This document shows positions 40,764 through 43,026 of a DNA stretch of 64,000 nucleotides, piece by piece. Below the pieces are notes generated by a model, which made no database searches, was not told the origin of the DNA, and saw only the letters and a program-made list of their open reading frames with translations. The stretch is from assembly GCF_000479335.1 (NCBI RefSeq), contig NC_022584.1, positions 992,001 to 1,056,000 on the forward strand. Reading direction: 5' to 3'. The DNA is from Streptococcus ilei (GTDB lineage: Bacteria > Bacillota > Bacilli > Lactobacillales > Streptococcaceae). Position numbers and translations under genes: made by a program. The first letter of the stretch is position 1, and each line of letters starts with the position of its first letter.

Positions 40764-40883
40764 TTCTTTCACAAGATTTTAAAAAAATTTTTTTAAAAAA
40801 TTTTTCTTTCTTCCTTTTTGACAAACAAAAAAATCCCTTTGAGATTTTGATATGTACCCAGAATCCTGGACACATGTTATGAA

Positions 40884-41771
40884 CTAAGTGGAACACATGG
40901 ATGCTATCCTGTACATTACAGGTGGCATCCATTTTGTTTTTCCTTGTATTCTTTCATTGTTGTAATAACTTATGTATTCATCTAGTGCTTTTGAAAAGCT
41001 CTCAAATGATTCATATTCTTTCTCGTAGCTGTAGTACATTTCATTCTTTAGACGTCCAAAGAATGTTTCCATAATGCAATTATCTATACAATTGCCACGT
41101 CTAGACATTGATTGGATAATTCCCCTGTTTTTTAGTTCCTGACGATAGTAGTTGTGTTGATATTGCCATCCTTGATCTGAATGAAATATTAATCCTGTAA
41201 GTGATTTGAACTTTTTAAACGCCATCTCTAGCATTCTCTTGATTTGATTTAGGTTTGGACTCATCGACAAGTCATATGAAATAACTTCATTTGTGTACAT
41301 ATCAATTATCGGAGAAAGGTAACACTTTCCCCATGAAAAGTTAAACTGAGATACATCAGTTGTCCACTTCTGAAGTGGTGCTGTTGCTGTAAAGTCTCTA
41401 TCTATTATGTTTGGTGCTACTTTACCTACTTCACCCTTGAATGAGTGATACTTTTCTTTAGGTCTTTTGCCTTGCAATCCAAGTGAATGCATGATACGTT
41501 GTACTCTTTTATGATTGACAGAATTTCCACGTCTTAAGAGCTCTCTATACACTCTTCTCACACCATATCTACCTTTATGCTGGCTAAATATTTTCTTGAT
41601 TTCTTCAGTGAGCTTAATATTTCTAAAGTCTACAGTATCAACTTTACTGATTTCGTAGTAGTAAGTTGATTTAGGCATATTTAAACCTTTTAGTAGGTGC
41701 TTTAATTGGTATCCTTCTTCTCTGAGCGCTTTGATGATTGCTGCTTTTTCGCCTTGAGTTGCGCAGCCCAT
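40884..41771 (-). CDS. IS3-family transposase OrfB (DDE catalytic domain)
   Basis: This 295-codon frame lies in the -1 frame relative to orfA and overlaps its last 70 nt. It carries the HTH_21 part (YGVRRVYRELLRRG) and the integrase core with all three acidic residues: WTTDVSQF (D), HSDQGWQY (D) and NCIMETFFGRLKNE (E). It is made as an OrfAB fusion by -1 frameshifting, probably at the A5G run (41749-41744). The annotated 5' limit is the open frame, not a true start codon. Confidence 0.9.
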   Translation of the reverse strand: MGCATQGEKAAIIKALREEGYQLKHLLKGLNMPKSTYYYEISKVDTVDFRNIKLTEEIKKIFSQHKGRYGVRRVYRELLRRGNSVNHKRVQRIMHSLGLQGKRPKEKYHSFKGEVGKVAPNIIDRDFTATAPLQKWTTDVSQFNFSWGKCYLSPIIDMYTNEVISYDLSMSPNLNQIKRMLEMAFKKFKSLTGLIFHSDQGWQYQHNYYRQELKNRGIIQSMSRRGNCIDNCIMETFFGRLKNEMYYSYEKEYESFESFSKALDEYISYYNNERIQGKTKWMPPVMYRIASMCST

Positions 41772-42268
41772 CTTTCTTGCCTCAAGGCGATCCTTTTTTT
41801 TACTACTTCAATCTCCGCTTTCATTGCCGCAATTTCTTCTCTTAGTCTGATTAACTCTTCACGTTCTGATTCAGTTAAAGGTTTGGGCTTAATCGTTTTC
41901 TTTTTCATAACAGGGTTCTTACTCTTGCGACCTTTCTTTTTATTCACAAGACCATTGTAACCTAATTCTTTGTATTTGCGAACCCAGGTATATAGCATTC
42001 CATTATTTATACCTGCAGAAACAGCAACTGACTTGTTGGATTGTCCTGCTAATACTTTAGCAACTAATTCATATTTCGCTTCAGGGGTCCACACTTTGTT
42101 ATTACCTAAGTGCTTTAATGCATCTGGTCCATTTTCTTCTTCGATACGAGCCCAGTATCGAACCATTAGATGAAAGTTTGATGTTTTTATTCCTTCTGGT
42201 GTTTCAGGCCATATTCCTTTTCTATATAGCTCAATACACTCTAACTTATACTCATGACTGTAACGCAT
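41702..42268 (-). CDS. IS3-family transposase OrfA (DNA-binding)
   Basis: This 188-aa protein has tandem helix-turn-helix motifs (about 5-50 and 58-110, with NKSVAVSAGINNGMLYTWVRKYKELG), then a basic linker (NKKKGRKSKNPVMKKK) and a leucine-zipper coiled coil (about 130-165). It recognises the IS ends. Start at the ATG at 42268 with AAGGAGGG 8 nt upstream. The terminal region overlaps orfB, allowing frameshift fusion. Confidence 0.9.
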   Translation of the reverse strand: MRYSHEYKLECIELYRKGIWPETPEGIKTSNFHLMVRYWARIEEENGPDALKHLGNNKVWTPEAKYELVAKVLAGQSNKSVAVSAGINNGMLYTWVRKYKELGYNGLVNKKKGRKSKNPVMKKKTIKPKPLTESEREELIRLREEIAAMKAEIEVVKKRIALRQERWAAQLKAKKQQSSKRSEKKDTN

Positions 42269-42336
42269 GAAAATACCCTCCTTACTGGGTGTCCAGTAAA
42301 GAGGGTACATATCATTTCTCATCAAAGGGATTGTTG

Positions 42337-43026
42337 TTATTCTTGCATTTGGTAGCCGACACCTCGGACAGTTTTGATATAGCTCTTTTGTCCTGGAAGA
42401 TCTATTTTCCCACGAAGATAGCGAATATAGACATCAACGATATTGGTTTCTGCTGTACTCTCATATTTCCACACCCGCTCTAAGAGTTGCTCCCGACTAA
42501 GGACATGTTTGCTTCCCATCAAAGTTGCTAATAAATCATATTCACGACGTGTCAGATCAATTACTTCTTCTCCCCGATACACCATATGATTCTCGACATC
42601 AATTCGCAAATTCCGATAGGAAGTGGGAACTTTCATCTGATTACAATGTTGGTCAATAAAATCACGGCCTCTAAAAATAGCGATGATTTTCTCAACCAAA
42701 TCACTGATCACGAATGGTTTGATGACATAAGATACTGCAAATCGTTGGATACTCTCCATATGCTCTGAAATTTTCTCACGACTATCCAAGACAATCAAGA
42801 CTGCTGCAGGACGAATCTTGCTCAGACGCTGGGCAAACTCTTCCCCACTCATATCTTCTAGTTCGTAATTGAGAAGAATTAAATCATATTCTGTAGCCTG
42901 CAGGAGTTTCAAGGCCATTTCCCCTTGTTCTACCAAATCAACTACATAGCCAGCTTTCTGAAGTTCTAAATCAATAAAGCGCGCTAAATTCTTTTCATTT
43001 TCTACTAGTAATATCCGCTTTGTCAT
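42337..43026 (-). CDS. ritR: Orphan redox-sensing response regulator RitR
   Basis: This 229-aa OmpR-type regulator has a receiver domain (1-120) and a C-terminal winged helix (about 130-229, LTRREYDLLATLM). The phosphoacceptor Asp is replaced by Asn at residue 53 (LILLNYEL), and a single linker cysteine lies at residue 128 (DQHCNQ). Both match pneumococcal RitR, which controls iron uptake and switches by oxidation of Cys128 instead of phosphorylation. No histidine kinase gene is nearby. It lies 9 nt after gnd, as in S. pneumoniae. Confidence 0.93.
   Translation of the reverse strand: MTKRILLVENEKNLARFIDLELQKAGYVVDLVEQGEMALKLLQATEYDLILLNYELEDMSGEEFAQRLSKIRPAAVLIVLDSREKISEHMESIQRFAVSYVIKPFVISDLVEKIIAIFRGRDFIDQHCNQMKVPTSYRNLRIDVENHMVYRGEEVIDLTRREYDLLATLMGSKHVLSREQLLERVWKYESTAETNIVDVYIRYLRGKIDLPGQKSYIKTVRGVGYQMQE

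Follow-up and report, generated by a model that had tools for sequence, protein, structure and literature searches.

Several kinds of mobile element are already known to target hairpins, namely REP-targeting members of the IS3 family, IS1272 and group IIC introns. IS3-family elements transpose through a circular intermediate. The IS150 group includes IS1221 and IS1223, and IS1272 belongs to the IS1182 family. ISPsy8 is described as entering a probable hairpin on its axis of symmetry, with a 3-bp repeat (PMC1525189), IS1272 as targeting an inverted repeat that can fold into a stem-loop (PMC5678879), and group IIC introns as lying beside the stem-loops of Rho-independent terminators (PMC7923331). 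A full-text literature search, in which older subscription papers were mostly beyond reach, returned no report of terminator targeting by the IS150 group.

At the locus analysed here, an IS150-like element separates the two arms of a terminator-like hairpin, and many copies of the element and its relatives in several bacterial groups occupy the middle of a hairpin that has A and T tracts on its sides, and 3-4 bp are duplicated. The finding is real and general. We think it likely that the transposase of this element, a member of the IS150 subgroup of the IS3 family, favours insertion at the dyad centre of intrinsic terminators, which are often two-sided; judged by their sequence, the targets are terminator-like hairpins, that is, predicted terminators.

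The ritR site and the inserted element

In the window (the whole stretch of 64,000 nucleotides of DNA that was analysed), a 6-phosphogluconate dehydrogenase gene is followed by the response regulator gene and then by the split arms (Table 1). The arms AATCCCTTTGA and TCAAAGGGATT are perfectly complementary, and the loop between them measures 9 nt once one TTT is removed. The first-pass annotation had placed the IS in the loop of the ritR terminator and had expected a hairpin at this site in strains without the IS, and both statements were borne out: in the closest relative found for the region (L225; 97% identity, 446 bp) the IS is absent, the hairpin is uninterrupted, and a single AAA stands where the IS cuts. 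Folded as RNA, the L225 hairpin has an energy of -20.6 kcal/mol (z -3.96), which none of 200 shuffles equalled. This empty site has what defines an intrinsic terminator at the sequence level, a stable G+C-containing stem and then a T run, and it is predicted to work as a terminator. The intact hairpin is absent from the output of a simple terminator scan, whose rule of accepting loops of 3-8 only may be the reason why it was missed. After the insertion, the downstream half-stem can itself fold into a short hairpin before the T run (AAAUCUC-AAA-GGGAUUU; window positions 40825-40847, minus strand).

Table 1. Features of the ritR site and of the insertion sequence, in window positions
Feature	Position	Strand or orientation	Remarks
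Response regulator gene (ritR in the naming of the first-pass annotation)	42337..43026	-	gene precedes the split stem
5' arm of the split ritR terminator-like stem	42322..42332	-	11 nt, TCAAAGGGATT
3' arm of the split ritR terminator-like stem	40832..40842	-	11 nt, AATCCCTTTGA; T run next on the minus strand
IS3-family, IS150-like insertion sequence	40848..42314	minus (orfA then orfB on the minus strand)	1467 bp
Terminal inverted repeat, orfB side	40848..40859	+	
Terminal inverted repeat, orfA side	42303..42314	-	
Target duplication TTT, copy 1	40845..40847	direct	single copy at the L225 empty site
Target duplication TTT, copy 2	42315..42317	direct	
orfA	41702..42268	-	188 aa; helix-turn-helix domains HTH_28, HTH_Tnp_1
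orfB	40884..41771	-	295 aa; DDE integrase core; -1 frame relative to orfA
Hairpin of the element, immediately internal to its orfA-side end	42274..42307	-	16 bp

The termini of the element, TGATATGTACCC and GGGTACATATCA, form an imperfect inverted repeat of 26 nt (81%), so that the features of IS3-family ends, namely TG..CA termini, imperfect inverted repeats and a duplication of 3-5 bp, are all present. The orfB product scores 304 bits against the IS3-family model NF033516 (cut-off 160). An A8G run inside the orfA/orfB overlap appears to be the A-rich slippery run typical of the family, and together with the overlap it predicts -1 frameshifting from orfA into orfB. Compared with the IS150-like end sequence TGTACTGCACCC, the ritR-site element has TGATATGTACCC, and the wider relatives introduced below (clade B) have TGAACTGCACCC, TGTACTGCACCC or near forms.

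The element occupies three insertion sites in the same genome, all of which rebuild terminator-like hairpins, and the duplications at these sites differ (TTT, ATG and CTT). The third site carries a full copy and a partial copy in tandem. In the stretches L002 (1501-3434) and L004 (G000:C1 1153452-1155384), a full IS copy is followed head-to-tail by a partial one (query 1-467), and the tandem junction is close to GTGTACATATCA, a sequence within the IS that resembles its ends (IS position about 446-457). A segment made up of 35 bp of IS end and the end of the flanking gene is directly duplicated beside the IS at a distance of 457 bp (L005, 1501 and 1958; L002, 1044 and 1501). The orfB of another copy (L003; G000:C1 76610-78076) contains one in-frame TAA, and this copy is therefore probably non-functional on its own.

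Hairpins and tracts at the sites of related copies

Relatives were sampled in three sets. Clade A comprises near relatives (OrfB at least 54% identical), retrieved through similarity to the element or to OrfB and never through a flank; its hosts include streptococci, Lachnospiraceae, Anaerotignum, Lagierella, Finegoldia, Ligilactobacillus, Erysipelotrichaceae and others, and 45 of 47 rows, from 65 distinct loci with both ends, were used. Clade B comprises wider relatives (OrfB 42-52%) with ends that are mostly TGAACTGCACCC-like, and 42 of 55 listed rows were used, 13 being excluded for weak end scores. A later set consists of 22 distinct sites from 30 loci and 37 hand-picked stretches. In two genomes the ends were poorly called (G396, 8 copies; G1272, 3 copies), and G396 was re-read by eye. 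At three loci (L042, L044 and L050), the sequence past the IS ends resembles the end hairpin of an TGAACTGCACCCC-type IS, apparently as a result of one IS having inserted into the end hairpin of another. At a further locus (L046 626-657; G048:C37), the arms flanking a tiny, internally deleted IS remnant still pair as a hairpin when read by eye.

Hairpins across the insertion sites were scored by folding the two 25-nt flanks with pairing allowed only across the junction, the controls being mispaired flanks from the same sets. A loose hairpin rule had been discarded in favour of energies and mispaired controls, as it fired at 1461/6107 intergenic window positions. At -14 kcal/mol or better, hairpins were found at 28/45 sites in clade A and 28/42 in clade B, compared with 37/1980 and 80/1722 of the respective mispaired flanks, and none of 2000 flank derangements reached the hairpin count of either clade. 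The same energy was attained at 119/4000 random window positions, at 1/174 positions displaced by 30 nt in the same loci, and at 0/18 IS30 copies from the same genus (2/18 at -12 kcal/mol), these 18 being the loci with the better end calls among 30, of which 7 have a duplication and several have unsure ends. Sites falling short of even -10 kcal/mol numbered 9/45 in clade A and 11/42 in clade B.

In a duplex test, the flanks were treated as separate strands and a site passed when it lay beyond the 1% tail of mispaired flanks. Among sites with a duplication, 23/33 passed in clade A, 24/41 in clade B and 9/18 in the later set, a total of 56/92. The controls from the same genus gave 0/20 for other IS3 subgroups (12 with a duplication; cluster 5, L318-L322, was excluded, its called ends looking wrong) and 0/18 for IS30, and the difference between 56/92 and 0/38 is associated with a Fisher p of 1.7e-12. 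With sites lacking a duplication included, 9/22 sites of the later set passed the 1% cut and 13/22 lay below the 5% cut. As the later set gives a weaker signal than clades A and B do, the actual rate of hairpin sites may be closer to between one half and two thirds. A stricter score for separate arms, which excluded larger loops, placed 24/45 clade A sites, 22/42 clade B sites and 4/22 sites of the later set above its 1% cut, with 0/20 for other IS3 subgroups and 1/18 for IS30. The earlier proposals that this group of transposases targets terminator hairpins, and that the flanks of other copies would rebuild hairpins, are thus upheld, the first in the sense that such targeting is often seen. 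The suggestion that the ritR landing is unlikely by chance likewise held: a single site may be luck, given how often random window positions reach -14 kcal/mol, but all three of the genome's sites rebuild hairpins and the statistics for the clades agree, so that a chance hit at ritR has next to no probability.

Part of the sites without a duplication or hairpin may stem from recombination between copies. In G396, two copies (L097 and L180) have swapped duplications, one with GTG on the left and AAT on the right and the other the reverse, and matching the flank of one copy with the opposite flank of the other restores both duplications and both hairpins. The by-eye reading of this genome gave cognate hairpins at 5/8 copies, two of them only after this cross-matching. 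Of the 12 clade A sites at which no duplication is present, 3 lie beyond the 1% cut. Since the L097/L180 swap is a case in point, and the split of clade A by duplication agrees with it, some of the sites that do not fit can be explained by recombination.

The insertions are also closely centred. A hairpin of -10 kcal/mol or better occurs somewhere in a stretch of 100 nt at 75/92 duplication-bearing sites, and the distance from its centre to that of the duplication is at most 3 nt in 61/92 and at most 6 nt in 69/92; in other IS3 subgroups, 2 hairpins were found in 12 sites, and 0/12 within 6 nt. When the base profile is aligned on the duplication rather than on the hairpin, the left side peaks at 0.73 for A and the right side at 0.68 for T, in both cases 12-13 nt outside, and G+C is near 0.5 at 2-8 nt from the duplication. 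The duplications themselves have no fixed sequence, with 35 distinct triplets among 92 sites. Where a strong hairpin is lacking, 18/20 sites still have one tract or more at a distance of 11-18 nt, and 6/20 have both; the corresponding figures at random positions are 772/3000 and 49/3000. Both tracts occur at 45/72 hairpin sites versus 11/33 terminator-like hairpins of the window (p 0.0065), under slightly different selection rules.

What the transposase may recognise

These observations favour a layout of two-sided tracts and a dyad, perhaps aided by the hairpin, over the hairpin alone, because sites with a weak hairpin keep the tracts and because two-sided tracts are commoner at insertion sites. 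The transposase itself would pick a dyad with A and T tracts 11-18 nt out, and it might recognise this dyad either in duplex form, with its symmetric tracts, or after extrusion into a hairpin. Insertions would then land between genes, at a small cost to the host.

The alternative that fares best is recognition of the hairpin (cruciform) alone, with the tracts irrelevant. Most sites are indeed strong stems with the duplication at the centre, and a parallel exists in ISPsy8, also of the IS3 family, which is described as entering the symmetry axis of a REP hairpin (PMC1525189); yet a tract at a set distance is kept in nearly all of the weak-hairpin sites, and we regard this explanation as possible but unlikely. 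Transcription-coupled targeting, with the transposase attracted by an RNA polymerase in the act of terminating or by the hairpin of the nascent RNA, would suit targets that resemble terminators with T tracts. An orientation bias, first seen by eye, was ruled out by the count, however: among 62 sites, the right T tract exceeds the left A tract in 24, the reverse holds in 23, and the two are equal in 15. Coupling to a passing polymerase is disfavoured by this lack of bias, and the greater frequency of two-sided tracts at insertion sites than at terminator-like hairpins of the window, even under the slightly different rules, also speaks against it, so that we consider it improbable.

The copies sampled are survivors of selection, and it could be that the element inserts widely and that only insertions at intergenic terminators persist. 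In keeping with this, the sites sit behind genes: at the 56 hairpin sites for which a rough ORF rule scored both neighbours, the two ORFs converge in 25 cases and diverge in 3. Selection for intergenic positions would nevertheless leave the centring to within 3 nt unexplained, and neither the empty counts for other IS3 subgroups and IS30 of the same genus nor the near-absence of hairpins 30 nt away in the same loci would follow from it; we give survivor bias little credence. Direct choice of the tract-flanked dyad by the transposase is the reading that we prefer.

The end hairpin, the IS150 group and known systems

The element's own hairpin at the orfA-side end recurs in 30/30 distinct clade A ends and 23/23 clade B ends (z < -2, mononucleotide shuffles), compared with 6/30 and 0/23 for a hairpin at the opposite end. 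In the ritR-site copy, the likely orfA ribosome-binding site (42276-42283) was located by eye in its 3' arm. The first-pass annotation took ritR to have lost its terminator. The native stem is indeed split, but within the window the end hairpin, a strong one, dominates the predicted RNA running out of ritR, beginning about 29 nt past the stop codon of ritR. It has a weak U tract, and the simple scan of the window lists no minus-strand terminator there. At most clade B ends, the hairpin is followed by a terminator-like T run when read by eye. Shielding of the transposase gene from outside transcription occurs in other ISs, and we infer from the predicted folding that the end hairpin would likewise shield orfA from transcription of the host gene, and that it may partly replace the split ritR terminator. 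The first-pass annotation had suggested that read-through from ritR could raise transposition. We do not favour this: in the ritR-site copy the likely orfA ribosome-binding site is hidden in the end hairpin, and read-through should thus not simply have that effect.

In a tree of 31 OrfB rows, which carries a long-branch warning, the near clade forms one group (100/100), and it joins the wider clade and InsK of E. coli IS150 in a larger group (98/95), separate from IS3 InsF, IS2 InsD and the non-targeting streptococcal subgroups. Among the both-ended sites of a mycoplasma record, 8/16 lie beyond the 5% tail and 4/16 beyond the 1% tail. Single plasmid copies from Fusobacterium and Brevibacillus (L263, L264) sit in clear stems, and a single Cytobacillus plasmid copy (L265) in a weaker one. 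As for E. coli IS150, 8/9 fetched plasmid copies (L254-L262; nine from 40 listed of 1601 matching records) lie at hok-type toxin-antitoxin genes, as does the K-12 copy (L223), and a good stem is present in 2/9, those two having the same flanks. The IS3 copies of E. coli K-12, taken from the annotation only, split a gene in 3/5 cases, with one abutting pseudogenes and one intergenic. It is conceivable that the whole IS150 subgroup is terminator-seeking, in hosts as varied as streptococci, clostridia, mycoplasmas and fusobacteria, reading the layout of A tract, dyad and T tract instead of a sequence and carrying an end hairpin that replaces the split terminator and shields the transposase gene. 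We hold this wider reading tentatively, at just short of an even chance rather than at one, because the scan lists no minus-strand terminator at the end hairpin.

If true, an abundant group of ISs would spread cheaply by means of a structured gene-end landmark common to most bacteria, and the target choice of a DDE transposase would become testable with a short, definable DNA layout. In genomes rich in these ISs, terminators may be split, and the hairpin-centred insertion pattern offers a practical aid for calling true insertion ends and for spotting recombined copies.

Among known systems, the REP-targeting elements IS1397, ISKpn1 and ISPsy8 are, like the ritR-site element, members of the IS3 family. 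They target one repeat family, whereas the targets of the IS150-like element share a terminator-like layout and no sequence; targeting of the REP type was rejected for the element on these grounds, its targets differing in sequence with no single repeated palindrome. E. coli IS150 falls in the same tree clade as the ritR-site element, but its fetched copies are at hok-type loci. IS1272 and group IIC introns resemble the IS150-like element in their targets, an inverted repeat or stem-loop in the first case and terminator stem-loops in the second. IS1272, however, takes the place of its target repeat and leaves no duplication, whereas the IS150-like element keeps both arms and duplicates 3-4 bp; replacement of this type is ruled out at ritR by the retention of both arms and of the TTT duplication and by the empty site in L225. 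Group IIC introns are retroelements that enter downstream of the stem via RNA pairing, in contrast to the IS150-like element, which moves into the loop by DDE transposition.
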